From: Pseudomonadota bacterium | GTDB taxonomy: Bacteria; Pseudomonadota; Gammaproteobacteria; Burkholderiales; Gallionellaceae | NCBI GenBank assembly: GCA_026399735.1 | Contig: JAPLQK010000117.1 | Location: forward strand, 1-34,120 | DNA: 34,120 nt | Reading direction: 5' to 3' | Shown here: positions 7,659 through 31,853 of the stretch, piece by piece | How positions within the stretch are numbered: the first letter of the stretch is position 1 | Layout: every line of letters begins with the position of its first letter | Notes under the pieces: model-generated | What the model saw: only the letters and a program-made list of their open reading frames with translations | What the model was told of the DNA's origin: nothing | The model's database searches: none | Made by a program: the position numbers and the translations under genes

Positions 7659-9050
7659 CTACGACTGTTCTTCCTCAAGTCGCTTATGGTAGCGGCCGGC
7701 CAGAATACCGAGCGCAATCCAGCCCAGCATGACCAAAACCAGCAACAAAGAAAGCCATCGCACCGCATCTCCTGAAAAACCCAGGCTGACAAAGTAAACC
7801 AGCAGTACGGCAGCACCCTTGCCCAGACGCAACCAGAAAATATCGATGAATGCCTTGGCCTCGTATTTTTCCTGGCGCGAAATGGGCACATACAGCAATT
7901 CCTTGGCGGTCTGCTGTATGGAATAGGCAAATCCGTAATCAAAGGTATTCAGCAGGCTGCCGAACATCAGAATCGGGAAGATTAAATAACCCAGCGAACC
8001 TAACAATACCGATACCGGCAAAACACAAAGCGCAACCGCAATCCCCCAGCGCCTGATTACCCAACTCGTCAGAAAAACCTGAACCAGCAGCGCAACAAAA
8101 TTCGAAAATGCATACACCGATGCGAAATAGGTCTTGTAATTTTCAGGTGCAACCGAGTGCAGCACGCTGGACGTGAACTGGTAATCAAGCACAATCGAGG
8201 TGATCTCGTAAAACATCACGATGCCGGCCAGCCAGCGCAGATAGGGCGAACGCATCGTCAGACGCATCCCTTCCATCGCATGAGCCGCCATCCCGCCTTC
8301 GGGCAACGGCGTGTCGGAGGTGCAATGGAAGTCCAGCACCGGCCTGCGTTCGATAATGTGCGCGGCGAGATGTTCGATCAGCACAATCCCGATTACCAGC
8401 GCCAAAGACAACAGTACTGAATAGGACGGATCGGCCAATGAAGATTGATGAGCGATCACGGAACTGCCAAAAAACCCGCCCAGCACACCGCCGGTACCGA
8501 TCAGACCATAGGTCAACTTGGAAGTTTTCGAATCGAAGCTGTCGTTCAAAAAAGAGAAGAACATCAACAACATGCTGGTGACAAATAAATCGCCGAACAA
8601 ATAAAACGCCCACACAGACAGCGCGCTGCTGACGTTGAGGAGAAAATAGAACAGCGCAAGACAAACGACAAAGAATGATGCCACCAGCAGCGTGTAATGC
8701 TCGCGCTTATATCGTCTGGACAACAAGGTATAGGCGATCATCGCAAAAAATGCGACGACAATATTCAGTTCCTTGGCCAGCAACTCGACTTGCGCCGCAT
8801 CAATGGCCTGCCCCAGAAAATTCAACGCATGCAGCTTGTAGTAGCCGACAAACAGCGCCTTTTTCAGCGGCTTGAGTATCCAGTAGGTGGTGACGATCAG
8901 AAAAAAACTGGCGAACATGTACAACGAGAACAGCCGGTCGCGTGGCGATATCAGGAAAATCTGTTTTACAAAACCGGCACCCAGAATCAGGCCGAGAATG
9001 TACTTCCATTCCCAGGCCCAACTGACAAATTTTACGAAAAAGTAATCCAT
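7659..9050 (-). CDS. Npt-type nucleotide/ATP:ADP antiporter family membrane protein
   Basis: Polytopic inner-membrane protein of 463 residues with about 11-12 hydrophobic segments. The pattern WILKPLKKALFVGYYK in an early helix and the late segment TAKELLYVPISRQEKYEAKAFID are hallmarks of the ATP/ADP translocase (Npt, TlcA) family of the MFS clan. Best known from plastids and intracellular bacteria, such proteins also occur in free-living proteobacteria where the substrate is unclear. ATG 9050 was chosen because AAGGTG lies 6-7 bases upstream; the GTG at 9059 overlaps that site. Convergent with yceH and 21 bp downstream of pgeF. Confidence 0.82.
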   Translation of the reverse strand: MDYFFVKFVSWAWEWKYILGLILGAGFVKQIFLISPRDRLFSLYMFASFFLIVTTYWILKPLKKALFVGYYKLHALNFLGQAIDAAQVELLAKELNIVVAFFAMIAYTLLSRRYKREHYTLLVASFFVVCLALFYFLLNVSSALSVWAFYLFGDLFVTSMLLMFFSFLNDSFDSKTSKLTYGLIGTGGVLGGFFGSSVIAHQSSLADPSYSVLLSLALVIGIVLIEHLAAHIIERRPVLDFHCTSDTPLPEGGMAAHAMEGMRLTMRSPYLRWLAGIVMFYEITSIVLDYQFTSSVLHSVAPENYKTYFASVYAFSNFVALLVQVFLTSWVIRRWGIAVALCVLPVSVLLGSLGYLIFPILMFGSLLNTFDYGFAYSIQQTAKELLYVPISRQEKYEAKAFIDIFWLRLGKGAAVLLVYFVSLGFSGDAVRWLSLLLVLVMLGWIALGILAGRYHKRLEEEQS

Positions 9051-9071
9051 AGCCGGCACCTTATCAACAAC

Positions 9072-12255: not shown

Positions 12256-12993
12256 ATGAAATTCACACGCACCTTTATCGCACTTGCCGCTGTCATCCTG
12301 ACGGGTTGCGCCACGCCCCCGAAAAACGCGTCCGATCCGCTCGAGCCATTCAACCGTGGCGTATATACGTTCAATGACACGCTGGACAAGGCTGTCGTCA
12401 AACCGGTCGCGCAAGGCTATAACAAAGTCATGCCGGATACCGGCAAGAGCATGGTGATCAATTTCTTCTCGAATCTGGATGATGTGGTCGTCACCGCGAA
12501 CGACTTGCTGCAATTCAAATTTATCCAGGCCTTATCGGACGGCATGCGCGTACTGGTCAATTCCACCGTCGGCGTAGCAGGGCTGGTCGATGTGGCCTCG
12601 ATGAATCTGGAAAAGCACAACGAGGACTTCGGCCAGACGCTGGGCTACTGGGGCATCAAGAGCGGCCCCTACCTGGTCGTGCCCGTTTTGGGACCAAGCA
12701 CGTTTCGCGACAGCATCGGCGACATTGGCGACAGTCAGTTCAGCATGATTTCAAAAATAAAAAAAGTGCGCACCCGCAACCAGATGTACCTGACCAAGGG
12801 GATCAAACGCCGCGCACAATTGCTCGACAATGAAAACCTGCTGGATGGCGCCGTCATAGATCGCTATGCCTTCATACGCGACGCCTACTTGCAACGGCGT
12901 GAAAGCCTGGTCTACGACGGCAACCCGCCGCAGGATACCTCGGAAGATGACGTAAATACAGAAAATTCACCGACACCCGCACCAATGCCGTAA
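12256..12993 (+). CDS. mlaA: MlaA (VacJ) outer-membrane phospholipid-removal lipoprotein
   Basis: Lipoprotein of 245 residues that extracts mislocalised phospholipids from the outer leaflet of the outer membrane and hands them to the Mla pathway. Signal MKFTRTFIALAAVILTGCA has lipobox LTGC (Cys18). VacJ signatures are seen: DPLEPFNRGVYTFND, FFSNLDDV, EDFGQTLGYWG and GPYLVVPVLGPSTFRD. The C-terminus ends in a low-complexity Pro/Thr tail. GAGAG lies upstream of the ATG. It is physically apart from the Mla-type transporter at 24.3-27.7 kb and is followed by a strong terminator. Confidence 0.93.
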   Translation: MKFTRTFIALAAVILTGCATPPKNASDPLEPFNRGVYTFNDTLDKAVVKPVAQGYNKVMPDTGKSMVINFFSNLDDVVVTANDLLQFKFIQALSDGMRVLVNSTVGVAGLVDVASMNLEKHNEDFGQTLGYWGIKSGPYLVVPVLGPSTFRDSIGDIGDSQFSMISKIKKVRTRNQMYLTKGIKRRAQLLDNENLLDGAVIDRYAFIRDAYLQRRESLVYDGNPPQDTSEDDVNTENSPTPAPMP

Positions 12994-13010: not shown

Positions 13011-13038
13011 AAAGGCCAGGATACTTCCTGGCCTTTTT
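13011..13038 (+). terminator. rho-independent terminator after mlaA
   Basis: AAAGGCCAGG (13011-13020) pairs with CCTGGCCTTT (13027-13036) around a 6-nt loop, followed by further T. The stem core is the same as that of the terminator at 24160-24185 that ends the polysaccharide locus. Confidence 0.9.
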
Positions 13039-13267
13039 GCTGCCCGCCGCCTTTGCAGGCGCACCATGATGACGGCATTTACAAACCAGCAGAATATTGC
13101 ACAAATATTACGAAGATCGTTGATAACTAAAAAAAGTTCCGTAAAAACAGAAAAAAATTAATTTATTAGGTAGAATACGGAAAATATATGTAAGTTTGGT
13201 GTAAACATCCGCAGATAACAGGATGAAAAACCATACATACCAGGAAATACAGTGCCCAGGAGGGGTG
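13039..13267 (+). promoter_or_regulatory. AT-rich leader/promoter region of the polysaccharide locus
   Basis: This gap of 229 bp holds no gene. Its middle (about 13085-13195) is strikingly A/T-rich compared with neighbours and must contain the promoter of the six-gene locus. Candidates include TTGATA (13120-13125) and TAGAAT (13171-13176), but none form a properly spaced -35/-10 pair. AGGAGG at 13258-13263 is the ribosome site of the first gene. No riboswitch was recognised. Confidence 0.45.
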
Positions 13268-15334
13268 ATGAAGAAATCTGCAATTTGCGCGCTGCTCGCG
13301 TGTATCGTGTCATGTCTGTCCATAACATTAGCGGAGGCACGCGCCACCCCGACCGCCGCCGTCGATCCCGCAAAAACAGCCGGCGAATCTGACAAAATCA
13401 AAGTTCATGCAGAACCGCTGATGGATGTCGGCGCCCTGAAAAAACTGGGCGCAGGACTTCCGGACATCGCAGTGACTTCTCTGTATGAAATGGGGTTTAT
13501 TCAGGGCAATGTCTTTGAAGGTGCGAGTTCCGAACACGAATTTACCGTATTCTTCCCGCTCCCTGTGGATTCGCTTGCCGGATCCGGGGTCATCAAACTG
13601 CGCTATAAAACGTCGGCTTTGACCGGCGCGGTACCGAACCTGCGTATCGATGTGAACGACCATACCGCCTACAGTACGCCGCTGGCCCTTGAACCGACCT
13701 TAAGCGGACTGGACATCCCGATCAGCGCCGATGATCTCAAGATCGGCCACCTCAAGCTGACCATCAAGGCATCCATCATGCCGACCGACTCGCGCTGCTT
13801 CGATGAGCGTATTTTTGCACTGCACTACATCCAGATCCTGCCTGAAACTCGTGTCGAACTGTCAGGGCTGTCAAACAAGGTTGAATCGTTGCGCGGCGTG
13901 TGGAGTGTGTTGCCGAAAAACGTAACCATGTCCATCCCGAAAAAACTGACGCCGGAAGTCATGAAAGTGATTCTGCAGGCCGCAACCCATATACGCGTCT
14001 CAGGCAAAACGGTAGGGTTTGTGCAACTACCGGAGGTGGGCAATATCGTCGTCGCTGAACGCGCTGAACTGGCCCAATGGCTGACAAGTATTCCGGGCGT
14101 ACCGGCCGGCGATTTCAAGGCTGACAGCAACATCTCCGTGATTCACCGCGATGTAAAAGGATTGTCCAACATTATCGCACTGACCGAGGCCGCATCCGAA
14201 CGGGATATGCAGTTGCTGTCGCGCGACTGGCGCAAGGTGACACTGGAGGGAGAATATCTCGATCAGACGCCGTCTTCAGTAGACAAGCGCACTACACGCA
14301 CTTTTACGCTGAGCGAAATGGGACTGAACGATGAGCCGCGCACCATTACGCGTACAGTAGACTGGAAGTTTTTCGCAGGTCTCCCGCAAGTGCCCGGCGA
14401 TATGCGCATAAAATCAATCCACGTCAACGTGGTGGCACCGCCTTCCAAGGACAGAATGAACGAACGCCTGCTGCTGTTCGTTTACGTAAACAACATCCTT
14501 CAGGAAGTGCAACCCGTCGAGAATACCGGCAAGACGCAGTCCTTCACATTCAATATCGCCAACTACAGCCAGTGGGTTGGACGTAACTACGTCAAAATCA
14601 TGGCACAGCGTTTTGCGCCACGCGATTGCCAGAACAGCCTGTCTTCCTACCAGATGCAGATCACGCGCGACAGCACCATTGAATTTGAGCATTTTGACAC
14701 CAATCCACGCATCTTCAATGATCTGCACCCCTATTTTTCGAACGGGTTTGATTTGTATGTGGAACCGGAATACTTTGCTCCTGAGCATCTGGTCCTGCTG
14801 ACCACCGTATTAAGCGATCAGAAATATGATCTGGCCAATATGAATGTTATCAATCTGGGCGAAAAGGCCACCTTCAAACCCGTGCGCCCGTTCATGATTT
14901 ATGGCCGTCCGATGTTTGCGCTGGATGACATGACGGTACGCTTCGACCACGGCTCTGTCGAAGTTCAGACAGATGACAAACGGGTATTGCTGGCGGTTAA
15001 AAATCTTCCCGGCATCTCTATCGCGCAGGTTGTGAAGCACAACGGCATGGGCGGCTTGTGGCTCGCGCCTTCGCAGGATCACGCAAAATCCGAAATCAAG
15101 GAATACTTCCTGGAGCAGGGCGACACCTCGTTTGCCGACGAATCGGGTGAAGTACTGAACATGAAAACGCGCCAGATGAATCGCGCCAAGATCGAGTATC
15201 CCGAGTTTCTGGATTTCTTCAGCAAGCTCGGACGCTACCGTTTCTGGATCGTCGCGCTGGGATGGGCAGCGCTGGGCCTGGTGCTGGTGATGATCTATCG
15301 CCGCATTCTGCACAATCAAAAAAAGACAAAGTGA
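13268..15334 (+). CDS. BcsB-like periplasmic polysaccharide synthase subunit
   Basis: Protein of 688 residues. A signal peptide (MKKSAICALLACIVSCLSIT, cleavage near LAEARA) precedes a large periplasmic region. It contains repeated beta-sandwich-like segments and CFDERIF near residue 177, comparable to the conserved CFDE region of cellulose synthase subunit BcsB. A single C-terminal TM helix (about 657-679) is followed by basic residues, again as in BcsB, where that helix packs on the synthase. In cellulose synthesis BcsB guides the emerging glucan through the periplasm. ATG 13268 has AGGAGG at 4-5 bases; ATG 13223 lacks a site. The GT2 synthase begins 6 bp downstream. The polymer need not be cellulose. 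Confidence 0.82.
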   Translation: MKKSAICALLACIVSCLSITLAEARATPTAAVDPAKTAGESDKIKVHAEPLMDVGALKKLGAGLPDIAVTSLYEMGFIQGNVFEGASSEHEFTVFFPLPVDSLAGSGVIKLRYKTSALTGAVPNLRIDVNDHTAYSTPLALEPTLSGLDIPISADDLKIGHLKLTIKASIMPTDSRCFDERIFALHYIQILPETRVELSGLSNKVESLRGVWSVLPKNVTMSIPKKLTPEVMKVILQAATHIRVSGKTVGFVQLPEVGNIVVAERAELAQWLTSIPGVPAGDFKADSNISVIHRDVKGLSNIIALTEAASERDMQLLSRDWRKVTLEGEYLDQTPSSVDKRTTRTFTLSEMGLNDEPRTITRTVDWKFFAGLPQVPGDMRIKSIHVNVVAPPSKDRMNERLLLFVYVNNILQEVQPVENTGKTQSFTFNIANYSQWVGRNYVKIMAQRFAPRDCQNSLSSYQMQITRDSTIEFEHFDTNPRIFNDLHPYFSNGFDLYVEPEYFAPEHLVLLTTVLSDQKYDLANMNVINLGEKATFKPVRPFMIYGRPMFALDDMTVRFDHGSVEVQTDDKRVLLAVKNLPGISIAQVVKHNGMGGLWLAPSQDHAKSEIKEYFLEQGDTSFADESGEVLNMKTRQMNRAKIEYPEFLDFFSKLGRYRFWIVALGWAALGLVLVMIYRRILHNQKKTK

Positions 15335-15340
15335 GTTCTG

Positions 15341-17224
15341 ATGCTTTATAACAGCAAAAAGAAACTAAGGCTCGGCGAAATCCTGATCAAGAACGGGCTG
15401 ATCAGCCCCGTTCAACTGGAAGAGGCGCTTGTTATCCAGAAGGACTGGGGATCGAGACTGGGCGATGTGATCATGGCCCGTGGTTGGGTGACATCCAAAA
15501 AGTTTTACCATACGCTGGCAGAACACTTCGATATGCCCTTTGTAGATTTTTACAAGGAGCCCGCCGAGCCAACGTTGCTTAAATCTGCATTGTACGGCCA
15601 ATACCTGGAACATCTGGTCGTACCCTACAAGCACCACGAAGGACGACTGATGGTGGCGATTGCGGACATCGGCGACGCATCCATGCAGTTCGCGGAAAAT
15701 GAGTTTGGCCGTGACGTGGATTACGTCATGACCAGCAAATTCGACATCATCTGGCATCTTCAGGCCTGCGGTAAAGAGTTCTTCAACCATACTGCCGTTC
15801 ATGCGCTCAGCTTCGCACGGCCGAAACAGTCCGCGAAACAGGTTTTTACCGTACAACAACTGATTCAGATCGGCCTGATACTGTCTGCGATGTTTGGCAT
15901 TTTCGTTTATTGGCCGACGGCAAGTCTGATTGCGCTGAATATATTTGCGGGTCTGTTCTTTCTCATCAATTACTTTTTCAAGGCCACGCTGGCCTGGGTG
16001 GGCAGCCACAGAAAAGTCGACATGCGCATTACCGACAGGATGCTGGCAAACCTTGACGATGCCTCGCTCCCTCTGTACACGGTGCTGGTGCCGATGTACA
16101 AGGAGGCCAAGACGCTGCCGATTATCGCCGCCTCATTGCGCAAACTGGATTACCCTAAATCCAAACTGGACGTTAAACTGGTTCTGGAAGAGGACGATCA
16201 GGAAACCATTCAGGCTGCAAAAGATCTGGGGCTTGAGTCGTTCTTTGAAATCATTCGCGTACCGCACTCCCTGCCCAAGACCAAGCCCAAGGCCTGCAAT
16301 TACGCCCTCAATTTTGCACGCGGCAAATTTCTGACCATTTACGATGCAGAAGACAAACCCGAACCGCAACAACTCAAGAAGGCGCTGATCACCTTTGCCC
16401 AGTCTGCGGAAGACGTTATCTGCGTTCAGGCGCGTCTGAACTACTTCAATTCCACTGAAAACTGGATGACGCGCATGTTCACGCTGGAGTATTCGATCTG
16501 GTTCGATTATTTCCTGCCAGGGCTGGATATATTGCGCATCCCCATCCCGCTGGGCGGCACTTCGAATCACTTCAAAATGGATAAGTTGCGCGAGATCGGG
16601 CTGTGGGATCCCTACAATGTCACCGAGGATGCGGATCTGGGCATGCGCATCACCCAGCTCGGCTATCGGGTGGGCGTGGTCAATTCGACCACTTATGAGG
16701 AAGCCACCGGCGCACTGGGCAACTGGATCCGTCAGCGTTCGCGCTGGGTAAAGGGTTACATGCAGACCTATTTGGTTTACATGCGTCATCCCATCGATAC
16801 CTACCGGACGCTGGGGCACGCCGGATTCTGGGGTTTCCAGATGTTTGTCGGCGGCACCATCATGACCACCCTGTTGCTGCCCTTCATGTATGGCATGTAT
16901 TTCTTCTGGCTGATCACGCAGACCATGGCGCTGGACTCGTATTTTCCGCCCATCGTTCTATACATGAGCCTGTTTAACTTGTTGATGGGTAACGGATTTT
17001 TCATTTACGTGTACATGCTGGGCGCCTTCAAACGGCACAACTACACGCTGATCCCGTATGCACTCACTGCGCCGTTCTACTGGATGCTGCTGTCTCTGGC
17101 GGGCTACAAGGCGCTGTGGCAACTGGTTTTCAATCCTTTTTACTGGGAAAAGACCACGCATGGCCTGACCCATTTTGTCCACGAAGAACTGGATTTGCCC
17201 GAAAATCAAAATGCAAAAACGTAA
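15341..17224 (+). CDS. membrane GT2 polysaccharide synthase with N-terminal MshEN (c-di-GMP-binding type) domain
   Basis: Inner-membrane glycosyltransferase of 627 residues. The first about 150 residues are a T2SSE_N/MshEN domain: motif one RLGEILIKNGLISPVQLEEA (10-29, with L30 and Q33) and motif two RLGDVIMARGWVT (39-51), the paired pattern that binds c-di-GMP in MshE. Two TM helices follow (about 174-222). The GT2 domain has DAED (335-338), TED (428-430) and QRSRW (465-469), the D,D,D,QxxRW set of processive beta-glycosyltransferases, and GGTSNHF near the acceptor site. Three or more TM helices lie at 496-596. There is no PilZ domain. The domain pairing recalls E. coli NfrB, in which MshEN is C-terminal. 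Sugar specificity unknown. Its 3' end overlaps the next gene by 14 bp. Confidence 0.88.
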   Translation: MLYNSKKKLRLGEILIKNGLISPVQLEEALVIQKDWGSRLGDVIMARGWVTSKKFYHTLAEHFDMPFVDFYKEPAEPTLLKSALYGQYLEHLVVPYKHHEGRLMVAIADIGDASMQFAENEFGRDVDYVMTSKFDIIWHLQACGKEFFNHTAVHALSFARPKQSAKQVFTVQQLIQIGLILSAMFGIFVYWPTASLIALNIFAGLFFLINYFFKATLAWVGSHRKVDMRITDRMLANLDDASLPLYTVLVPMYKEAKTLPIIAASLRKLDYPKSKLDVKLVLEEDDQETIQAAKDLGLESFFEIIRVPHSLPKTKPKACNYALNFARGKFLTIYDAEDKPEPQQLKKALITFAQSAEDVICVQARLNYFNSTENWMTRMFTLEYSIWFDYFLPGLDILRIPIPLGGTSNHFKMDKLREIGLWDPYNVTEDADLGMRITQLGYRVGVVNSTTYEEATGALGNWIRQRSRWVKGYMQTYLVYMRHPIDTYRTLGHAGFWGFQMFVGGTIMTTLLLPFMYGMYFFWLITQTMALDSYFPPIVLYMSLFNLLMGNGFFIYVYMLGAFKRHNYTLIPYALTAPFYWMLLSLAGYKALWQLVFNPFYWEKTTHGLTHFVHEELDLPENQNAKT

Positions 17225-18713
17225 ATCACATCGTGTTTTAGAATTTTTTATCCTGGCGACGGCGTTATTTTCCGTCCTGATGGTCTGGCTGTTGAGCCAC
17301 GACTATCACAGCGAATATTCGCTGCGCGTATGGGCCAAGATTCTCGCCTTCGGCGGCAATGACTTCCGTCTGGAAGACTCCGGCATCCTGTTTCCCTATG
17401 TACCGTTCTATCTGTTCTGGGGCGTAACCAAATTCCCCGGTTTACACACGGAATATGTCTCCTACCTGCTCTCGATACTGGCGGCAGCAGGCGTCTTTGC
17501 GCACTGGAACACCTTTCTGGTCAAAAAAGGTTACCGCCTCAAGGAACGGCTGTTACTTGCGACACTGGTCATCAGTCACCCCTTCGCGCTGTGGGGCATA
17601 ACCAGCGGTCTCAACAATGCGCTGACCTTCGCCGTCTTCTATATGTTCTGCTTTGGCGTCGTGCGCCTGGTACTGCTGCGCGATTTACACTCCATCCTGT
17701 TTCTGACGGCTTCGCTGGCCGCTTTCTTTCTGACCGACGACCGCTCGATGTATCTGGCCATCGTGATGTTCCCGTTCATTCCGCTGATCGCGCCTGACCG
17801 CATGCTCAAGGAATCGCTGTCCAGCGTTTACGTGATCCTGCTGACGCCATTCGCGTTTGCCTTCATGTCGTGGATGTATCTTAACTGGATGTTCCACAAC
17901 GACCCGTTCATGTTCATGCACGCGCCCGAAGCCATGTATAACGGCGTCTGGCAGAACTCAGACCAGTATTCCTGGCTGAATCAATGGGGGGGCGACTGGA
18001 TTGCCTCGATCGGCTATTCATTCTGGCTGTCACTGCTGGCTACCCCGGCAACAATCTGGATGATCTGGCGCAACCGCATGCATGAACGCGTGCTGCACAC
18101 CGCACCAAAACTGTTTCTGATGCCGGCTTTTGCCGCAGCAATCGGCACGGTCGGTTTCGCGTTATTTCATGCGGTAGACGTGTTATTCATGCAGATGGCC
18201 GTATTCATGACCGCATTGCTGCTGCTCCCGAGACTGCGCGGCAATTCGATGAAAACCCTGCTGGGACTGCTGCTGCTGGGCAATTTTGGGGGCTGGTGGA
18301 TCATGCACACCAGCGATGCTCCGCAACTGAACAAATGGAAAGCGGCCATTTTGCATTCCGTGCCGGATTCAACGTCAGATGTGCAGTTAGCCAAATTTCT
18401 GAATGAACAACATTACAGCACCCTGATCGACGAGCGCGCCGGTTACCGCGTGATTGCAGCCAAGGGCAATGTGACCAATCTGGTGCTGCCGTTCAGAGTT
18501 GAAGTCAAGCTGGTGGACAAATATTTCCTTAAAACCGTTGATCAGTTAGCCATACTCAACCCCAATCATCGCCTGAGCGTGGTAGATGCGATCGGCAAAA
18601 AATACGAGGGCATTTACTGGGGAGGATGGGAAGGATTCCATCTGGTGTACGACGATCAGCAATGGCGTATCTATCGCCGCAACGACATCGAGTCGCTTGC
18701 GGCCAAAAAATAA
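17211..18713 (+). CDS. polytopic membrane protein, possible GT-C-type glycosyltransferase
   Basis: Protein of 500 residues with about ten hydrophobic segments in the first 380 residues, then a soluble C-terminal domain of about 120 residues that should be periplasmic. The first external loop (EYSLRVWAKI ... FRLEDSGILFPYVPFYLFW) contains acidic residues followed by a YxPFYxFW helix start, reminiscent of GT-C (PMT/ArnT-like) lipid-linked sugar transferases. I see no decisive family motif. ATG 17211 (MQKRKSH) overlaps the synthase stop by 14 bp, indicating coupling. By context it could decorate or process the polymer, or feed a lipid-linked substituent. Function unassigned. Confidence 0.7.
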   Translation: MQKRKSHRVLEFFILATALFSVLMVWLLSHDYHSEYSLRVWAKILAFGGNDFRLEDSGILFPYVPFYLFWGVTKFPGLHTEYVSYLLSILAAAGVFAHWNTFLVKKGYRLKERLLLATLVISHPFALWGITSGLNNALTFAVFYMFCFGVVRLVLLRDLHSILFLTASLAAFFLTDDRSMYLAIVMFPFIPLIAPDRMLKESLSSVYVILLTPFAFAFMSWMYLNWMFHNDPFMFMHAPEAMYNGVWQNSDQYSWLNQWGGDWIASIGYSFWLSLLATPATIWMIWRNRMHERVLHTAPKLFLMPAFAAAIGTVGFALFHAVDVLFMQMAVFMTALLLLPRLRGNSMKTLLGLLLLGNFGGWWIMHTSDAPQLNKWKAAILHSVPDSTSDVQLAKFLNEQHYSTLIDERAGYRVIAAKGNVTNLVLPFRVEVKLVDKYFLKTVDQLAILNPNHRLSVVDAIGKKYEGIYWGGWEGFHLVYDDQQWRIYRRNDIESLAAKK

Positions 18714-18725
18714 AGGATTGCCGTT

Positions 18726-19694
18726 TTGATATTTCGTGCGGCCCTGTTGTTGGTCTTGATGCTGATCTCAGGTTGCGTCCAGATGCAGATAAAAGGCGTT
18801 AATTTACTGCAAAGCCACAATGTCGCACTGGATGATCTGAAAAACGTGGGAAACATGCAGCACCTGAAGGAATTAGGCGCAAATACCGTTGCTTTTGTGC
18901 CCTTCATCAGACAAACCGCAAGTTGCGAAATGACGCTCGATGAGCACTATTCGATCACGCGTCTGCACCGTGCAATCGATTATGCGCATCAGGCAGGACT
19001 GCACGTCGTGCTGAAACCGCAAATTCTGATACAGGGCAGTTGGGCAGGAGATATCGATCAGGCCAGCGAACAGGGATGGTCATGCTGGTTTTCCGCCTAC
19101 ACCGGGCAGATGCTCGAACTGGCGAAACTGGCCGGGGACAGCCAGACCGAAATGCTGGTGATCGGTACTGAGCTGCACAAAACGGAGAACCGCCCTGAGT
19201 GGCGCGCCCTGGCAGATGCCGTTCATCGCATCTACCACGGCCAGTTGAGTTACGTTGCACACGATATTGGGGATCTTGCGAGTTTTTCCGCATTGGATAA
19301 GCTCGACAGCGTGGCGGTTACCTATTATCCGAGGCTGGAGCAGGGCGACATGCGAAAACAAATGAAGCAACTGGCCGGGCAAGTCAGAATGGAAGCCGCA
19401 AAACTGAAAAAACCGTTCTGGATCGCCGAAATCGGGATTACTTCACGCGCTGGAGCGCTGGAAAATCCGTGGTTGTGGCCGGATCAATTCGAAAAAAATG
19501 CACTGACCGATCCTGCACTGCAGGCTCAGGTACTGGACGGATGGCTGGCGGAACTGGCGGGCGACTGGCATAAGGGAATATTGATCTGGAACTGGTATAG
19601 CGATGCAAATGCCGGGGGCATGACAGACCTGGATTTTACAATACAGAATAAACCGGCAACTGAGGCAGTTTCAAGTCATTGGAAACAGCACTAG
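18726..19694 (+). CDS. GH113-like glycoside hydrolase lipoprotein
   Basis: Lipoprotein of 322 residues. The signal ends in lipobox LISGC (Cys17). The rest resembles a TIM-barrel hydrolase of the GH113/glycoside-hydrolase-like type: a KGVNLL start, then repeated strand-helix units, with candidate acid/base E149 in VIGTELHKTE and candidate nucleophile E235 in WIAEIGITS, followed by ILIWNWYSD. Known GH113 enzymes are beta-mannanases. In polysaccharide loci such enzymes trim or release polymer, as BcsZ does for cellulose. The start is TTG 18726, supported by AAAGGA eight bases upstream; the next ATG would remove most of the signal peptide. It lies 12 bp after the previous gene. Confidence 0.78.
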   Translation: MIFRAALLLVLMLISGCVQMQIKGVNLLQSHNVALDDLKNVGNMQHLKELGANTVAFVPFIRQTASCEMTLDEHYSITRLHRAIDYAHQAGLHVVLKPQILIQGSWAGDIDQASEQGWSCWFSAYTGQMLELAKLAGDSQTEMLVIGTELHKTENRPEWRALADAVHRIYHGQLSYVAHDIGDLASFSALDKLDSVAVTYYPRLEQGDMRKQMKQLAGQVRMEAAKLKKPFWIAEIGITSRAGALENPWLWPDQFEKNALTDPALQAQVLDGWLAELAGDWHKGILIWNWYSDANAGGMTDLDFTIQNKPATEAVSSHWKQH

Positions 19695-19747
19695 GATTCG
19701 GGCAATGATACAACAAACGAAAAAAGAGTTAACTTGCGAGGATGGTT

Positions 19748-20605
19748 ATGAAAATCAATAAAAAGTTTCTGGCAATCATGGTGCTGGCCGCATTGCCGCT
19801 TGCATCCAGCCAGGCAGGCTGGATGCAAAGTGAAGGCGATATTGCCATATCTTCAGGCATCGGATTCAAGGACAACGGGAATTTCTTTGACCGTCAGGGA
19901 AGCTCCATGCGCAATACCTGCGGCAGCGGCATAAACATCCCTTTGTATGCAGAGTACGGTGCTTCCTACTACAACACCGTCTATGCCTCAACCTCACTTG
20001 ACAGTTTCAATTGCGGCAATGTCAAACAGCAGGGTATTAACGACATTGAAACCGGTATCCGGGGCCGCATGGGTTACTTCATCGACCATAACTGGGAAGT
20101 CGCCGCCATTTTTCCTCAGCACTTAACGGTAACCGGGGCTGCCGCGATACCGAAACAGTTCGGACTCAAAGCGGGCATCCATTCCAGCACGCGTCTGGAT
20201 CCCTATGAAAGCTTTCTGACTGAACAGGAAATCGCAAAAAACTCCTTTGCCTACGGTGCAGGCGTCAAATACTGGATAGGCGATGTTCCCGGTGAACTCT
20301 GGGGTTATATGAGTTACGGTCACACTTTGAAAAATGCAGACTGGTCCAAGGAACTGGGTGGCTGGTCCTTCACCGCCCGACTGGACGCAAGAAACTCACT
20401 CGGAAAGACACGCACCGTGACACCGGGAAACGCACTGGTGGACATTCATGACAATTACAGCTTGCTCACCGGTCAAATCGGCGTCAATCGCAGTCTGAGC
20501 ATTACCGAATCCATGAACATTTTCCTTGAACAGGGGCTGTGGGGACGGAATACGAGTTATGTTACCGGTGCTTTTGTCACCTATTCCAAAGTTTGGCGTA
20601 ATTAA
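19748..20605 (+). CDS. outer-membrane beta-barrel protein of the polysaccharide locus
   Basis: Exported protein of 285 residues. A signal peptide (MKINKKFLAIMVLAALPLAS, cleavage after SSQA) is followed by alternating strands rich in Gly, Tyr, Trp and Asn, and the protein ends FVTYSKVWRN. Strand hairpins such as NIPLYAEYGASYYNTVYAST, DIETGIRGRMGYFID and ELWGYMSYGHTL support a barrel of perhaps 12-14 strands. No named family recognised. ATG 19748 is preceded by GAGG; the ATG at 19742 overlaps that site. Its position between hydrolase and kinase genes suggests an export pore or outer-membrane anchor for the polymer, which is inference. Confidence 0.75.
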   Translation: MKINKKFLAIMVLAALPLASSQAGWMQSEGDIAISSGIGFKDNGNFFDRQGSSMRNTCGSGINIPLYAEYGASYYNTVYASTSLDSFNCGNVKQQGINDIETGIRGRMGYFIDHNWEVAAIFPQHLTVTGAAAIPKQFGLKAGIHSSTRLDPYESFLTEQEIAKNSFAYGAGVKYWIGDVPGELWGYMSYGHTLKNADWSKELGGWSFTARLDARNSLGKTRTVTPGNALVDIHDNYSLLTGQIGVNRSLSITESMNIFLEQGLWGRNTSYVTGAFVTYSKVWRN

Positions 20606-20618
20606 TAGCGGTGCTGCC

Positions 20619-23600
20619 ATGAATACAAATATATATAAATTATTGGGAATTGCCTTACTGACGTTGTCAGCTGGTGTATTGGCCGTAGACGAAACAAACG
20701 ATGTCGCGACTCCTGCCAATGATCAAACCCTGCAGGGCACAAGTAATTCCGGTCAGACAGCTGCAGAGATGCAGAAAGAAGCTGAGGAGCGAGCGCAAGC
20801 GGACATCCGCGTTGCCAAGCTCAAGGCTGCAATGGAAGCCAAGGCTGAAGCTGCCCGTCTGAAGACGGAACAAAAAGCAAAAGCAACTACCGAAGCGCAA
20901 GAGAAAAAAGCGGCATTAGCCAAAGCCAAGCAGCAAGCAGCGGATGCCAAAGCCGCCCGTCTCAAGGCCGACAGTGAAACCAAAGCCGAAGCCGACGCAA
21001 AAGCGGCTGACGAAGCACAGGCACGGGAAGCGGCTGATGCTCCTGCCAGACAGGCAGCTGCCGAAGAAACGGCGCGTCAGACCGCAGAAGCCAAAGCGGC
21101 TGAAGAAGCACGCGCTCAAGCGCTGGCCGATGCAAAAGTCGCCAAATTGAAAGCACAACAAGAAGCAAAAGCCGAAGCGGCACGTGTTAAGACAGAGCAG
21201 AAGGCAAAAGCCGCTGCCGATGCACAGGCTAAAAAGGAAGCACTGACAGCAGCCAAGAAACAGGCGGCTGAAGAAAAGGCGGCCAAACTCAAAACTGAAC
21301 AGGATGCCAAAGCGGAAACTGAACGTGCAAAGGCGGCGCAGGATGCCAAGATTGCAGCCGAAGAAAACGCACACAGGGAAGCCGCTGCACAGGCAGAAGC
21401 CGCTCGCCTGAAAGCGGAAGATGAAGCGCTGTCCCCGATGCGTGAAAAGGCCGCCAAATTTGCAAGCTGGAAAGAGATAGAAAATCATCTGCAAGCCAAC
21501 GGCGTCCATCTGGTGATGAACCCGAAAGATGCGGAACATCTGTTCCATAAGGATCCGACAGACAAATCCAGCTTCCCTGTGAAATTTGTCGATGGTGACA
21601 TCACGTTGAATGGTCGTGTTACTGTCAAGGGCAGTTTCACTCGCAATTTCCTGAAGAAGTCATTGATCGTCAAATTCGACAATGGCGCGACCTGGCACGG
21701 CCAGGACAGGATTTCGCTGGATGCAATGGCAACCGATGTCACAGAAGCGCATCAATGGCTGGCGCATGATCTGATGGCTCGCATGAAAATGGCGGCACCG
21801 GAAATGCTGTTCACCAATCTGGATATCAACGACAAACGCATCGGCCGTTACCTGATGGTGGAATGGATCAAACCTTCCATGTTTGAACGCTTCGGCTTGG
21901 GTGCTGACGGCGAGTTGTATAACCCTGAAGACACCTATTTCTGCGGGAATTTTCAGCCCGAAGATATGAAACGACTGGAAAAATGCTTTTCCCGTCTGGA
22001 TGGCGGACATGATTTCAGCCGCCTGAAAAAGTTGGCGCAGGAACTGGACGCCATCCCGGTAGAGAAGTTTGACGACTATCTGAACAAAAACTTCGATAGC
22101 GACTCTGTCATCAACTGGCTGGTCATCAACACGCTGACCGGAAGTGAAGACACCTATAACAAAAACTACTTCCTGTACTACAGCAATCTGACCCAAAAGT
22201 GGACGCTCGTGCCCTGGGACTATGACATGGCCTTTGGTCGTGTCGCTGATCTCGGCGTTGCATACCCGCGAACGATCTTCAACACCGGCTTCCAGTATCT
22301 GCATTCACCTGAATCGGGTGCTCCCAGCCCGTTGAAGGAAAAAACGCTGAAGAATGCGGTTTTGTACAAACGCTATCTGGCAAAAGTAAATGACCTGTTT
22401 GCGGACGTACCGCTGCAGGCAGATTCCTATAAAGGCTGGTACAACCCGAAAAACTTCAGCCGGATGATCGAACAAAAACGTGCTGAAACGCATGCCAGCA
22501 TTGTCACCGAAATGTATCCAAATCCTGACAAATCCGACTTCAACTACATGTACGATGGATTGCGTTTCTTTAACGAATGGCGCTATCAGTACCTGAACAA
22601 ACTGATGCTGGTGCCTTCCGTATGGAATACGCCAATCTGGTTGCCCTATAAATCATTTGATCCGCTCCAGCCGCTTGAAGCTGATTTCTATGCGAAACGT
22701 CATCGCGAACCAATGACCCTCGTGACGTCCCGTGACGTCAAGGAAACCGGCAAGCGTATCTTCTTCGTGGATCCTATGCTGGGCATACCTCTGCTTGCAA
22801 TGGACACGGTCAGCATCTCAAAACCCAGCCACTTTGATGTTCAGGTCTCATTCCAGCAAGACCCCGTCGCGCTGCCAGAGGGGATCAATGCAGAGGAGTG
22901 CCTGGAACATACATGGCATATCAGCAACCGCACACCGGACAGCGAAGTTAAAGCCAACCTTGAGATTGAATATATCAACGAAGGCTCGACTCGCCACGAA
23001 CTCGGCGACAAGATCAAGAGTGAACTCGGCCTGACAATCTGGTCCAATTTCGACGGCAAATGGTTGCCGCTGGATTCACAAATCAACCCCCGTTCCAACA
23101 GCTTTATCGTAAATAATATCGTGCTGGATACGGGCAGCTATACTTTGGTAGCCTGTGTTGATCGCGAAAAAGAAGCCATTGCGATAGCAAACAAAAATCG
23201 TGGTGCAAAAACGGGCAAGACATCTGGCCAGCAGACACGGATTGACAAACAGCTCAAAGCACAGTCAACCGAGTCGGAGCCAGCAGCAACGGCTGAACCA
23301 GCCGCTGCCGTTATTGCTCCTCCACCAGTCAAAACACCTGACACCAAAACCGCTGACGAAGCACCTGCACAAACCGATGCCAAAGTCGCAAAACTGCAAG
23401 CGGCCAGAGAAGCCAAAGCTGAAGCCGCCCGCCTGAAGGCAGAACAAAAAGCCAAGGCTGCAGCAGCTGCTCAGGAAAAGAAGGCCGCTGCTGCAAAAGC
23501 GAAGCAGGAAGCAGCGGATGCCAAAGCGGCTCAACTCAAGGCCGACAGTGAAGCAAAAGCTGAAGCCGAGCGCGTAAAAGCAGAAGCTGACGCGAAAGCG

Positions 23601-24131
23601 GCTGCCGAAGCACAGGCCAGGGAAGCGGCGGATACCTCTGCGAAACAAGCCGCCGCTGATGTTGCAGCCCGTCAGGCAGCAGACGCCAAAGCGGCTGACG
23701 AAACACGCGCACAAGCCGAAGCCGATGCCAAAGTCGCCAAACTGCAAGCAGCCAGAGAAGCCAAAGCTGAAGCCGCCCGCCTGAAGGCAGAACAAAAGGC
23801 CAAGGCTGCAGCGGCAACTCAGGAGAAAAAGGCCGCTGCTGCAAAAGCGAAGCAGGATGCAGCGGATGCCAAAGCGGCTCAGTTCAAGGCCGACAGTGAA
23901 GCCAAAGCCGACGCCGAGCGCGTAAAAGCCGAAGCCGACGCGAAAGCGGCTGCCGAAGCACCTGCTGCTGAAGCAACGGTTGCATCACCGGTCAATCAGC
24001 CTGATGCAGAAGCGGCAGCCCGCGCAGCAGCCGACGCCCGCGTTGCCAAACTCAAGGCGCGCATGAAAGCCAGTGATGCCAAGCTCAAAGCAGAACGAGA
24101 TGCAAAATCACCAGGTGCACCGGCACAGTAA
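20619..24131 (+). CDS. secreted CotH-kinase domain protein with flanking TolA-like coiled coils
   Basis: Protein of 1170 residues. Signal peptide MNTNIYKLLGIALLTLSAGV (cleavage near residue 22); Ala/Lys/Glu/Gln-rich coiled coil (about 48-280); CotH-type kinase domain (about 285-650); an all-beta segment (about 700-860); then a second Ala/Lys/Glu coiled coil (about 900-1167). Kinase signs are VKGSFTRNFLKKSL (ATP-side Lys near 346-347), D511 in GSEDTYNKN, and LVPWDYDMAFG with D534/D536. CotH phosphorylates coat proteins in Bacillus; CotH-like proteins of Gram-negatives are poorly understood. The coils resemble TolA domain II and could span the periplasm. ATG 20619 was chosen for its signal peptide. 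It lies 13 bp after the barrel gene and is last before the terminator. Confidence 0.85.
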   Translation: MNTNIYKLLGIALLTLSAGVLAVDETNDVATPANDQTLQGTSNSGQTAAEMQKEAEERAQADIRVAKLKAAMEAKAEAARLKTEQKAKATTEAQEKKAALAKAKQQAADAKAARLKADSETKAEADAKAADEAQAREAADAPARQAAAEETARQTAEAKAAEEARAQALADAKVAKLKAQQEAKAEAARVKTEQKAKAAADAQAKKEALTAAKKQAAEEKAAKLKTEQDAKAETERAKAAQDAKIAAEENAHREAAAQAEAARLKAEDEALSPMREKAAKFASWKEIENHLQANGVHLVMNPKDAEHLFHKDPTDKSSFPVKFVDGDITLNGRVTVKGSFTRNFLKKSLIVKFDNGATWHGQDRISLDAMATDVTEAHQWLAHDLMARMKMAAPEMLFTNLDINDKRIGRYLMVEWIKPSMFERFGLGADGELYNPEDTYFCGNFQPEDMKRLEKCFSRLDGGHDFSRLKKLAQELDAIPVEKFDDYLNKNFDSDSVINWLVINTLTGSEDTYNKNYFLYYSNLTQKWTLVPWDYDMAFGRVADLGVAYPRTIFNTGFQYLHSPESGAPSPLKEKTLKNAVLYKRYLAKVNDLFADVPLQADSYKGWYNPKNFSRMIEQKRAETHASIVTEMYPNPDKSDFNYMYDGLRFFNEWRYQYLNKLMLVPSVWNTPIWLPYKSFDPLQPLEADFYAKRHREPMTLVTSRDVKETGKRIFFVDPMLGIPLLAMDTVSISKPSHFDVQVSFQQDPVALPEGINAEECLEHTWHISNRTPDSEVKANLEIEYINEGSTRHELGDKIKSELGLTIWSNFDGKWLPLDSQINPRSNSFIVNNIVLDTGSYTLVACVDREKEAIAIANKNRGAKTGKTSGQQTRIDKQLKAQSTESEPAATAEPAAAVIAPPPVKTPDTKTADEAPAQTDAKVAKLQAAREAKAEAARLKAEQKAKAAAAAQEKKAAAAKAKQEAADAKAAQLKADSEAKAEAERVKAEADAKAAAEAQAREAADTSAKQAAADVAARQAADAKAADETRAQAEADAKVAKLQAAREAKAEAARLKAEQKAKAAAATQEKKAAAAKAKQDAADAKAAQFKADSEAKADAERVKAEADAKAAAEAPAAEATVASPVNQPDAEAAARAAADARVAKLKARMKASDAKLKAERDAKSPGAPAQ
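23376..23613 (+). repeat. 238-bp coding direct repeat, copy 1
   Basis: Nearly identical to 23724-23961, in the same frame, offset 348 bp (116 codons). It encodes the C-terminal Ala/Lys/Glu coil of the CotH-domain protein. Related, more diverged units occur near 20800-21020 and 21126-21350. Confidence 0.85.
23724..23961 (+). repeat. 238-bp coding direct repeat, copy 2
   Basis: Second copy of the 238-bp unit, differing mostly at synonymous or Ala/Thr/Asp positions. No indel separates it from copy 1, consistent with a fairly recent 348-bp tandem duplication in frame. Confidence 0.85.
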
Positions 24132-24159: not shown

Positions 24160-24185
24160 AAGGCCAGGTAAACCCTGGCCTTTTT
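24160..24185 (+). terminator. rho-independent terminator ending the polysaccharide locus
   Basis: AAGGCCAGG (24160-24168) pairs with CCTGGCCTT (24174-24182) around a 5-nt loop and runs into a T5 tract. It lies 29 bp after the CotH-domain gene. Its stem matches that of the terminator at 13011-13038. Confidence 0.9.
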
Positions 24186-24302
24186 AATTGGCGTATGAAT
24201 CATTTGATATCTCGGTAAATTGCGCAGATAATTTCAACAGCTTCTTCGCAATATCTTTAAATCTGTCGAACAACCTTAATTCCACTACAAATCTGTCCAC
24301 TG

Positions 24303-25439
24303 ATGGAACGCGCTGCACAAACAGATGAAAATACCGCCGGACTGTTCATTGCGACAGATGGACAAACCGTGCGTTGTACCGGCGCCTGGATCGTGCAGAA
24401 AATCGCCCGGCTCGAACAACAAATAAATGATGCCGTATGGCCAGACGCGAATGCGCTTGAGTTTAACTGTTCAGAGCTTATCGCCTTGGACACTGCGGGC
24501 GCCTGGTTACTGCACCGCACTGCCGGCAAACTGGAACAATTCGGGCATCCGGTGACCATCACCGGTTTACGGCCGGAATTTGAAGCCCTGCTGCAACTGA
24601 TTATTTCCTGCAAGATTGCACCTGAAACAACCCTGCCTGCCCGGCCGGATTTATTGGCCCGCATCGGGCAGTCTGCCTGGCACACACTCTCAAGCATGAC
24701 CGACATGCTCGCCTTTATTGGCGAAACCGCGATCATCCTGCTGCACTCCACAACTCAGCCTCATCGCATCCGCTGGCGCCCGATACTGCACAATCTCCAG
24801 TCCGCCGGGTTTGAAGCGTTGCCGATTGTCGGTCTGCTGTCCTTCCTGATGGGGCTGGTGATCGCCTATCAGGGCGCTGATCAGTTGCAGCGCTTCGGCG
24901 CCAATATATTCATTGCCGACATGGTGGGACTATCCATGCTGCGCGAGTTATCCCCGCTGCTGACCGCCATTATCGTCGCAGGTCGATCCGGCTCCGCCTA
25001 TGCCGCACAGATCGGCACCATGAAAGTCACCGAAGAAATTGACGCGCTGCGAACCATCGGTATCTCACCTGCGGAATTGCTGGTATTACCAAAACTGATT
25101 GCACTGGTGATCGCGCTGCCGCTGCTGACGGTTTATGCCGATATGGCCGGACTGGCGGGCGGCATGATCATGGCGCGCTCCAAACTGGACGTCAGTTTCG
25201 ATATTTTCATCAACCGGCTCGGCGATGCGATCCAGCTATCCTCTTATCTGACCGGCGTCGCCAAGGCGCCGGTGTTTGCCGCCATCATCGCACTGGTCGG
25301 CTGCTATCAGGGATTTCAGGTGACAGGCAGCGCCGACAGCGTCGGACGTCAAACAACGTTAAGCGTGGTTCAGGCTATTTTCCTGGTCATTCTGGCCGAT
25401 GCACTGTTTTCCATCGTATTCAACTGGCTGAAAATATGA
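24303..25439 (+). CDS. STAS-MlaE fusion permease of a Mce/Mla-type lipid ABC transporter
   Basis: Protein of 378 residues. The first about 105 residues form a STAS-like domain (FNCSELIALDTAGAWLLHR), equivalent to the separate MlaB subunit of E. coli. The remainder is an MlaE permease with about five or six TM helices and the conserved FLMGLVIAYQGADQL, LRELSPLLTAIIVAGRSGSA and GTMKVTEEIDALRTIG segments. It moves lipid between the periplasmic MCE ring and the inner membrane. Its stop overlaps the ATPase start by four bases (ATGA 25436-25439). With the ATPase, MCE protein and auxiliary lipoprotein it forms one operon. Confidence 0.92.
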   Translation: MERAAQTDENTAGLFIATDGQTVRCTGAWIVQKIARLEQQINDAVWPDANALEFNCSELIALDTAGAWLLHRTAGKLEQFGHPVTITGLRPEFEALLQLIISCKIAPETTLPARPDLLARIGQSAWHTLSSMTDMLAFIGETAIILLHSTTQPHRIRWRPILHNLQSAGFEALPIVGLLSFLMGLVIAYQGADQLQRFGANIFIADMVGLSMLRELSPLLTAIIVAGRSGSAYAAQIGTMKVTEEIDALRTIGISPAELLVLPKLIALVIALPLLTVYADMAGLAGGMIMARSKLDVSFDIFINRLGDAIQLSSYLTGVAKAPVFAAIIALVGCYQGFQVTGSADSVGRQTTLSVVQAIFLVILADALFSIVFNWLKI

Positions 25440-30536: not shown

Positions 30537-31853
30537 ATGTTCCCACTTACCAACCAGGTTCTGCATAAAACCGTGAATAATCCGGTCACAGACTTGCACG
30601 ACCGCAGCAGTTGTTTTACCAGGCTTGCCCGGTTAGCATCTCAGGCCACCCCTGAACGACCGCCCGCAATTATCTGGATTTCGCTCGATCGCATCAAACA
30701 GATCAACGAATCCTTCGGGCATCAGGGCGGCGATGTGTTTATCGCTCAAATTACCCGTCGCCTGCTGTGCAAGACGGGAACAGAGGCCCTGTGGTGCAGG
30801 ATGGCAGGTGACGAATTTGTTTGCCTCGTCCCTGCCGTCGATTCCGTTCAGACTCAACACCTCGCCTCCTCCCTGCTGAACGAGATTCAAATCCCGCTGC
30901 CTTTAAACAATTTGTTGCTTCACCCGTCGGCCAGCCTGGGTTTTGCAATTCTCGGGGCGGATGAAACGCCTTCTGACTGCCTTGAACGGGCTGATCGTGC
31001 CATGAACACAGCCAAACGCGCCGGTGGCGGACGCGTAGTGGCAGCGGATCCCGAATCCATACCCGGACGAATGGGCATCTGTCTGCCCCGCCATGAACTT
31101 GAAATCGAGAACAAACTGCACTCAGCAATCGATCAAAGTGGTTTGAGCTTACATTACCAGCCCATCGTCGATACCGATGGTCAGATTGTGTCCGTCGAGG
31201 CGCTGATGCGCTGCACAAGCCACAAGCTGTCTCCGGGCGAATTCATACCGATTGCCGAAAAAACGGGTTTGATTACTCGCCTGGGCGAATGGAGTTTGCT
31301 CGAAGGCGCCAGATTTGCACAGCGACTGGTCATGGCGGGACACCGCACACCGGTGGCCATCAACGTTTCCCGCGCACAGTTCGCCTTGCCGCATTTTCCG
31401 CAATCCCTTCATGCCGCCCTGCTGTGCGCCAACGTAAACCCCGGACTGATTGAACTGGAACTCACCGAATCGCTGTTCATGGATAATTCCAGCGTGGTTC
31501 AGTCGAATCTGCGTGCCGCTCTGGATTCCGGCGTCAAGATCGCCATCGACGATTTCGGTACAGGTTTTTCCTGCCTGGCCACGCTCAAAGACATCACCGC
31601 CACCAAACTCAAGATTGACCGGGCTTTTGTCATCGCACTGCCGCACGACCACCGCGCATTTTCGGTAGTCAGGGCGATCGCGCAACTCGGCGTTGATTTA
31701 GGCATGCTGGTTGTCGCCGAAGGCGTTGAAAGTCACGAGCAACTCGATTCATTGCGCGAGGCGGGTGTTCACGCCATCCAGGGCTACATTCACGCGCGGC
31801 CCATGCCTGAAAACATATTGCTGGAATGGCTGCAAAACAGGAAAACAACATGA
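30537..31853 (+). CDS. GGDEF-EAL protein (c-di-GMP turnover)
   Basis: Cytoplasmic protein of 438 residues with no TM and no recognisable N-terminal sensor. The GGDEF domain (about 40-165) has AGDEF at the signature site and no visible RxxD inhibitory site. The EAL domain (about 185-430) keeps all expected catalytic residues: VEALMR, NVS, ELTES, IDDFGTG, KIDR, AEGVE and QGYIHARP. It is therefore predicted to degrade c-di-GMP, with the GGDEF half possibly still active or GTP-sensing. Its stop overlaps the HDOD gene start (ATGA 31850-31853). It may influence the MshEN-containing synthase in this window; that link is inference. Confidence 0.9.
   Translation: MFPLTNQVLHKTVNNPVTDLHDRSSCFTRLARLASQATPERPPAIIWISLDRIKQINESFGHQGGDVFIAQITRRLLCKTGTEALWCRMAGDEFVCLVPAVDSVQTQHLASSLLNEIQIPLPLNNLLLHPSASLGFAILGADETPSDCLERADRAMNTAKRAGGGRVVAADPESIPGRMGICLPRHELEIENKLHSAIDQSGLSLHYQPIVDTDGQIVSVEALMRCTSHKLSPGEFIPIAEKTGLITRLGEWSLLEGARFAQRLVMAGHRTPVAINVSRAQFALPHFPQSLHAALLCANVNPGLIELELTESLFMDNSSVVQSNLRAALDSGVKIAIDDFGTGFSCLATLKDITATKLKIDRAFVIALPHDHRAFSVVRAIAQLGVDLGMLVVAEGVESHEQLDSLREAGVHAIQGYIHARPMPENILLEWLQNRKTT

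Follow-up and report, generated by a model that had tools for sequence, protein, structure and literature searches.

A six-gene locus in a Gallionellaceae genome matches the candidate stalk-formation cluster sfz1–sfz6

The stretch of DNA analysed here (the window; 34,120 nucleotides, positions 1 to 34,120 of contig JAPLQK010000117.1, assembly GCA_026399735.1) comes from an uncultured member of the Gallionellaceae. At positions 13268–24131 of its plus strand, the window carries six co-directional genes that belong to the same six families, in the same order and on the same strand, as sfz1–sfz6 of stalk-forming Zetaproteobacteria (PMC8250860). The unit is probably a synthase-dependent exopolysaccharide machine of the sfz/xag type, gated by cyclic di-GMP (c-di-GMP). 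Its product has an even chance of being the organic fibre of an iron stalk, and would otherwise be another attachment fibre. Such stalks are taken as fossil signs of iron-oxidising life, and their genetic basis is an old open question (PMC8250860).

The six genes and their borders

The assembly is 2.38 Mb long, consists of 117 contigs and is about 82% complete. Open reading frame (ORF) analysis places the six genes in close succession, with gaps of +6, −14, +12, +53 and +13 bases. The genes and the two terminators that border them are:

13268–15334, plus strand: gene 1 (sfz1-like), an inner ATG being chosen as the start; the longest ORF opens at 13223
15341–17224, plus strand: gene 2 (sfz2/xagB-like), a synthase with MshEN and family-2 glycosyltransferase (GT2) domains
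17211–18713, plus strand: gene 3 (sfz3/xagC-like), a GT-C-fold membrane protein; longest ORF from 17175
18726–19694, plus strand: gene 4 (sfz4/xagD-like), a GH113-family lipoprotein with a TTG start
19748–20605, plus strand: gene 5 (sfz5/xagA-like), a 12-strand outer-membrane barrel; longest ORF from 19742
20619–24131, plus strand: gene 6 (sfz6-like), a secreted CotH-family kinase; longest ORF from 20526
13012–13040, plus strand: intrinsic terminator after mlaA, the upstream border; a hairpin and T run seen in the sequence and by pattern search
24160–24190, plus strand: intrinsic terminator after gene 6, the downstream border; a hairpin and T run found by terminator scan and pattern search

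An earlier reading of the letters alone (the sequence-only reading) had described this arrangement, its gaps and its terminators. The coordinates and both hairpins are confirmed, and the domain assignments of that reading (BcsB family, MshEN–GT2, GT-C fold, GH113, barrel and CotH) agree with profile searches and structure models. The hairpin behind mlaA was missed by the automatic terminator scan; it is evident from the sequence and was recovered by the hairpin pattern. The arms, nine bases long, are the same in both bordering terminators (13012–13035 and 24160–24182), and a search of the 2.38 Mb assembly with this hairpin pattern gave no further site. Across the window the scan returned 20 terminator-like sites (16.7 in shuffled sequences, standard deviation 4.6) and seven promoter-like sites, fewer than the 9.9 of the shuffles (standard deviation 3.3). 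These counts are close to those of the shuffles, so the scan is informative for the two bordering hairpins alone; the promoter scan of the window yielded no convincing promoter for the six-gene unit.

Correspondence with named systems

The sequence-only reading knew of no characterised counterpart for this gene set, and the idea of an unknown set was dropped because sfz1–sfz6 matches it gene for gene and in order (PMC8250860). Its suspicion that the locus corresponds to proposed stalk clusters was borne out by sfz/sfb (PMC8250860) and bcsB–xagBCD (PMC4643136). It had also allowed for an already characterised pathway, which holds in part. The sfz cluster was proposed in 2021 for twisted stalks and published as a candidate (PMC8250860); it is the related xag operon that has biofilm mutants (PMC3609779). 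What is already known is thus the six-gene set itself and the fact that four of its genes are counterparts of xagABCD. New are the presence of sfz5 and sfz6 in this branch, a second CotH gene beside the cellulose-synthase genes of two Ferriphaselus-group genomes, the location between mlaA and mlaE, improved readings of genes 2 (MshEN), 3 (GT-C) and 5 (12-strand barrel), and the retention of the GH113 glutamates in gene 4.

The four window homologues of sfz1–sfz4 all align to both Mariprofundus ferrooxydans PV-1 and Ferriphaselus sp. R-1, with shared synteny. Gene 5 matches PV-1 Sfz5 with an E-value of 1.4e-4 in a single-sequence comparison and far more strongly with the family profile, and gene 6 matches its PV-1 counterpart with E 1.7e-77. 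Compared with sfz, the window unit has one MshEN copy rather than two, no SH3 domain found in gene 6, and mla genes on its flanks. The sfb1–4 (bcsB–xagBCD) cluster of Ferriphaselus has genes 1–4 in the order of the window (PMC4643136, PMC8250860), whereas genes 5 and 6 are outside the cluster, elsewhere in the genome; a TED motif is present in gene 2 of the window and is said to be missing from Sfb2 (PMC8250860).

The xagABCD genes of Xanthomonas (PMC3609779) share the barrel, the MshEN–GT2 synthase, the XagC/GT-C-type protein and the GH113 protein, all four of which were found in 13 of 13 Xanthomonas loci. There, however, the barrel gene comes first instead of fifth, a BcsB-like gene is present in one of the 13 loci, and CotH in none. 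Judged by gene content and order, the window unit is xag-related and not a xag operon. In five Xanthomonas loci (L068, L072, L073, L074 and L081, at about 16.6–21.8 kb), weak synthase and BcsB-like matches lie a few kb past the xag genes and are perhaps bcsA and bcsB.

Two more distant systems share parts of the design. E. coli NfrB–NfrA (PMC8669469) likewise pairs an MshEN-controlled GT2 synthase with an outer-membrane partner, but the MshEN domain is C-terminal in NfrB and N-terminal in gene 2, NfrA is a TPR barrel whereas gene 5 is a small one, and the published description mentions no GH113, GT-C or CotH genes. Streptococcal pel operons (PMC7112168, PMC12345266) likewise contain a secreted CotH-type gene in a synthase-dependent polysaccharide locus, although their polymer system and accessory genes differ from those of the window. 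Mutation of one such gene beside pel, SIR_1594, alters Pel and reduces aggregation (PMC12345266).

Relatives in named genomes

When named genomes were scanned using the synthase alignment, at least 532 loci were confirmed; the best 80 of these were examined for neighbouring genes at E < 1e-10. The resulting counts are lower bounds on account of contig ends: a BcsB-like gene in 59 loci, GT-C in 76, GH113 in 46, the barrel in 63 and CotH in 15. All six genes are present in 13 of the 80 loci, with identical order and strand in every one of the 13, which is more than chance would give. The co-occurrence of the six families that the sequence-only reading had put forward is therefore seen in Zetaproteobacteria as well as in the window's own family. 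The six-gene loci include those of Mariprofundus PV-1, M. micogutta and M. erugo, further loci of Mariprofundaceae type, gammaproteobacterial assemblies (one of them carrying the label Piscirickettsiaceae) and one assembly under the label Nitrosomonadales. Five of the six genes are present in a Thiobacillus assembly, GH113 not being found in the stretch examined. In M. ferrooxydans PV-1, a second BcsB-like ORF (L063:5545-7344, E 4e-83) lies immediately upstream of sfz1.

The synthase and its BcsB-like partner

Gene 2 matches the GT2 family PF13641 (E 3.3e-18) and MshEN PF05157 (E 8.2e-07), and its synthase motifs are DAED at residue 335, TED at 428 and QRSRW at 465. Its N-terminus carries a double motif of the c-di-GMP type:

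15368–15526, plus strand: 53 residues (10–62) of gene 2, NF053729 (E 7.9e-17; 60.8 bits against a cut-off of 38)

The MshEN c-di-GMP receptor is described as two 24-residue motifs separated by a 5-residue spacer (PMC5013675). Motif I of gene 2 fits that consensus and the spacer is five residues long, motif II departs from it at four positions, and c-di-GMP binding by the N-terminal domain may be regarded as likely. The corresponding part of Sfz2 has been called EpsE-like and perhaps involved in translocation, with doubt expressed by the authors themselves (PMC8250860). A Pfam scan at E up to 1 showed no PilZ, SH3 or secretion-ATPase domain in gene 2 or gene 6, and MshEN fits the gene 2 N-terminus better than an EpsE-like or secretion-ATPase assignment. 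Among nine synthases inspected at the N-terminus, four (L044, L058, L063 and L071; three from Mariprofundaceae and that of the Gallionellaceae genome G408) have two MshEN copies in tandem, while those of the window and of Ferriphaselus have a single copy.

Gene 1 is a periplasmic BcsB-family protein with a membrane anchor at the C-terminus. Taken alone it has no Pfam or NCBIfam match, but of the 30 family members aligned with it, 26 are recognised by the BcsB profile PF03170 (best E 3.9e-22). In the PDB profile search BcsB was the sole target, although at E 0.39–0.46 the match is not significant.

The GT-C protein, the lipoprotein and the barrel

According to its structure model, gene 3 encodes a membrane protein with a GT-C fold and a small soluble part at the C-terminus. 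A pattern match to it in a viral collection was judged to be no relative, and neither gene 3 nor gene 5 drew informative matches in the PDB sequence search. Gene 4 matches GH113 (E 2.3e-37) and the endo-mannanase 7dv7 (E 3.9e-20). Its Glu149 and Glu235, presumably the GH113 catalytic pair, are kept in all 59 alignment rows, among which some genomes appear twice, and what we take to be its lipobox was assigned by eye. Gene 5 is modelled as a 12-strand outer-membrane barrel related to XagA. Its likeness to the amyloid exporter FapF was rejected as a guide to function, as many 12-strand channels match.

The CotH-family kinase

Gene 6 matches CotH in Pfam (E 4.5e-40) and a CotH crystal structure in the PDB profile search (E 3.7e-35). 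Its Asp511 and Asp534, 23 residues apart and invariant in 14 of 14 rows, would correspond to the CotH catalytic pair D228/D251 (PMC7821199). The protein has arms rich in Lys, Ala and Glu, and a 348-bp tandem repeat lies within the gene at 23374–24038. The Zetaproteobacterial Sfz6 subtype is described as having an N-terminal SH3 domain and at least 50% identity (PMC8250860). CotH is the sole match of gene 6 in the Pfam scan, which found no SH3 domain, and the protein is 32.5% identical to the PV-1 Sfz6 core; on these grounds its sequence places it outside that subtype.

Distribution in Gallionellaceae

Searches for the synthase, CotH and the barrel covered 150 genomes of the family, taken as one draw from their shared genome handles. 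Seven have a full-length synthase: the window's genome, G408, G416 and G482 of its genus, and G381, G389 and G397 of the Ferriphaselus group. Some synthase match occurs in 123 of the 150 genomes, in one domain only beyond these seven. Full-length CotH is present in the same seven, with a partial, weak match in G386, and so is the barrel, which is found in addition in G513 of the window's genus (L154:9353-10255, minus strand), a genome with no full-length synthase or CotH. The seven carriers amount to about three lineages rather than seven independent events. A draw of 369 genomes from the class gave the synthase (E < 1e-100) in seven and full-length CotH in the same seven; nine further genomes have only partial matches to other CotH proteins. 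In earlier work, the four sfz/sfb genes were counted in 12 of 103 Gallionellaceae genomes (PMC10734462), and sfz1–4 were used for Gallionella (PMC12607638).

Betaproteobacteria were said to lack homologues of sfz5 and sfz6, leaving their role more ambiguous (PMC8250860). This published absence is corrected here, as both genes are present in this branch. They lie inside the operon in the window, G416, G482 and G408, and form an unlinked two-gene unit away from the synthase cluster in G381, G389 (Ferriphaselus sp. R-1) and G397; in G381 the pair sits between a pseudouridine-synthase gene and Era/RecO-type genes. The R-1 proteins are recovered with PV-1 queries: the CotH alignment spans 565 columns with 37% identity (E 2e-110), that of the barrel 158 columns with 28% (E 1e-9), the E-values being calculated for a set size of 3 Mb. 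A literature search, not exhaustive, turned up no paper that describes sfz5 or sfz6 from Betaproteobacteria, although one may exist; among the papers listed, PMC8250860 alone used these names.

The presence of barrel and kinase in the same seven of 150 genomes suggests that both are part of the core set. If so, screens for stalk potential should use six genes, irrespective of location, rather than four, and the kinase becomes a named candidate for fibre making or mineralisation. The six-gene set in gammaproteobacterial assemblies would mean one of two things: either the cluster does not mark stalks, or fibres of this kind are built by a wider range of bacteria.

Two of the three Ferriphaselus-group genomes, G381 and G389, encode an additional CotH protein that is longer than the first (about 1,497 residues, TPR and CotH; loci L152:8135-18633 and L153:3-10570). 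In G381 its gene follows a PilZ-bearing bcsA, bcsB and a GH8 gene assigned by Pfam, and profile matches alone give the same bcsA–bcsB–GH8–CotH order in G389. Judged by their content, these are the bcs genes that were linked to Ferriphaselus ‘dreads’ in a report whose text does not mention CotH (PMC4643136). In R-1, a Cyc2-like ORF (L042:4458-5822; CxxCH near the N-terminus, recognised by eye) lies immediately upstream of the sfb genes, a position also suggested by neighbouring locus tags (PMC4643136).

The site between mlaA and mlaE

In the window the unit occupies the interval between two mla genes, with a similar hairpin on either side:

12256–12993, plus strand: mlaA, upstream flank (MlaA, E 1e-75)
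24303–25439, plus strand: STAS-MlaE gene, downstream flank (MlaE, E 1.2e-77)

The mlaE region was compared in 14 cluster-free genomes of the window's genus. Seven have mlaA directly followed by mlaE, with 211–852 bases between the aligned ends, and three of these seven carry a perfect 9-bp hairpin between the two genes; in the other seven, no mlaA lies in the stretch examined. G416 has the unit in the same place, again with similar hairpins on either side as judged by eye. The picture looks like insertion of a whole transcription unit between mlaA and mlaE, or like loss of that unit from the relatives. G416 has in addition an 869-residue ORF (L039:2434-5043, minus strand), located between its mlaA and gene 1, that by eye reads like a hybrid sensor kinase.

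The synthase tree was built from 43 of 93 rows, with duplicates, Xanthomonas, Alphaproteobacteria and two odd Acidobacteriota rows left out by hand. It groups the window trio with Thiobacillus (support 81/85); a second group (95/95) unites Ferriphaselus, G408 and a Desulfobulbaceae assembly. The CotH tree (25 of 26 rows, L060 being out, after four duplicate loci had been dropped) places Thiobacillus and Piscirickettsiaceae beside the window trio (100/99) and G408 beside Ferriphaselus (100/99). Gene transfer in the history of the unit is likely on these trees. We do not claim separate origins for the window and Ferriphaselus operons, because a single clade of all seven Gallionellaceae synthases is not rejected (approximately unbiased test, p 0.10).

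Proposed function and alternatives

From the gene order, domains, folds, motifs and co-occurrence described above, we infer a scheme that covers each catalytic step, the order of the steps, the nature of the polymer and the role in stalks. Binding of c-di-GMP to MshEN would switch gene 2 on, as it does NfrB (PMC8669469). Gene 2 would then polymerise a sugar nucleotide at the inner membrane and push the chain outward, and gene 1 would take it over in the periplasm. Gene 3 may decorate the chain, or the anchor of the chain, with sugars taken from lipid carriers; gene 4 may trim the polymer, and gene 5 would form the outer-membrane pore through which the chain leaves. Gene 6 would be exported and phosphorylate a component of the extracellular fibre. 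Hydrolases in such operons usually cut the polymer of their own operon, and the presence of a GH113 protein therefore hints at a mannose-containing chain. A phosphomannose isomerase gene adjoins sfz in Zetaproteobacteria (PMC8250860). Among the matches listed in a literature search on stalk sugars and lectins, none evidently concerned stalk composition by its title.

A bolder idea, which we regard as a long shot, is that the CotH kinase is the mineral-guiding part of the system. Fam20C, to which CotH has a distant relationship (PMC7821199), is a kinase that acts on biomineralisation proteins (PMC3416761), and it is held to have such a mineral-guiding role for proteins of bone and tooth. By this analogy the kinase might phosphorylate the fibre or an attached protein, and the phosphates might seed or order iron oxyhydroxide. 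With a CotH gene tied to both fibre systems of Ferriphaselus, to the stalk set through co-occurrence and to a cellulose set through adjacency, a single principle could apply, in which a c-di-GMP-gated polymer and an extracellular kinase yield an iron-mineral fibre.

Several observations weigh against a c-di-GMP-gated stalk machine of the sfz/xag type. Apart from gene 2 (55%), the window proteins are only 25–35% identical to those of PV-1. Motif II of gene 2 is off-consensus at four positions (Met7, Trp11, Phe17 and His24), and the Arg of motif I is found in two of 13 rows of the synthase alignment (four rows begin later). The first outer loop of gene 3 has no strongly kept acid, its best columns being acidic in 26, 25 and 25 of 45 rows. 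Gammaproteobacterial assemblies for which stalks are not known carry the full set of six as well, and a Thiobacillus assembly carries five. Single xag mutants in a wild-type Xanthomonas background have unchanged biofilm (PMC3609779). A Ferriphaselus cyc2-like query had no match in the window's assembly; given its 82% completeness and the absence of a control, this shows little.

The strongest competing explanation, to which we give roughly one chance in three, is that the unit, like xag, produces a polysaccharide for biofilm or attachment in general and has no special tie to stalks; its association with stalk-formers would then stem from shared ancestry of the iron bacteria or from gene transfer among them. 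Relatives of the xag type are indeed widespread, including in Alpha- and Gammaproteobacteria, with GT-C and the barrel in most of the best loci (76 and 63 of 80), and some genomes with the six-gene set are not known to belong to stalk-formers. In Xanthomonas both xagA and xagB act in biofilm formation, as deletion of either removes the raised biofilm of an rpfG mutant (PMC3609779). The form with CotH is narrower (15 of the 80 loci), however, and within the family it follows genera with known stalk-formers, three of the seven synthase genomes belonging to the Ferriphaselus group. Moreover, sfz1–6 are reported from Zetaproteobacteria isolates that form stalks and not from those that form amorphous oxides, while dread-formers have distant homologues (PMC8250860).

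It is also conceivable, but improbable, that genes 5 and 6 are a separate, self-sufficient module of outer-membrane channel and kinase merely parked beside a synthase operon. The unlinked two-gene unit of the Ferriphaselus group and the lone barrel of G513 would fit such a module. The pair is nevertheless present in all seven synthase genomes of the 150, none of which has full-length CotH without the synthase, and each of the 13 Xanthomonas loci has an XagA-type barrel next to its synthase. A variant cellulose synthase operon is very improbable: gene 1 is of the BcsB family and gene 2 weakly matches cellulose synthase models (E 2.5e-14, with a score of 52 bits where the cut-off is 699), but gene 2 has no PilZ domain, GH113 replaces the cellulase, the GT-C protein is extra, and a Ferriphaselus-group genome with the unit has a separate bcsA(PilZ)–bcsB–GH8 set.

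Neighbouring genes

About 4 kb upstream of the unit, the window carries a TLC-type ATP/ADP transporter gene (7659–9059, minus strand; PF03219, E 6.8e-20); an ATP-ADP antiporter gene adjoins sfz in Zetaproteobacteria (PMC8250860). About 6 kb downstream are genes for a GGDEF-EAL protein (30537–31853) and an HDOD protein (31826–32713), which are a possible local source or sink of c-di-GMP.

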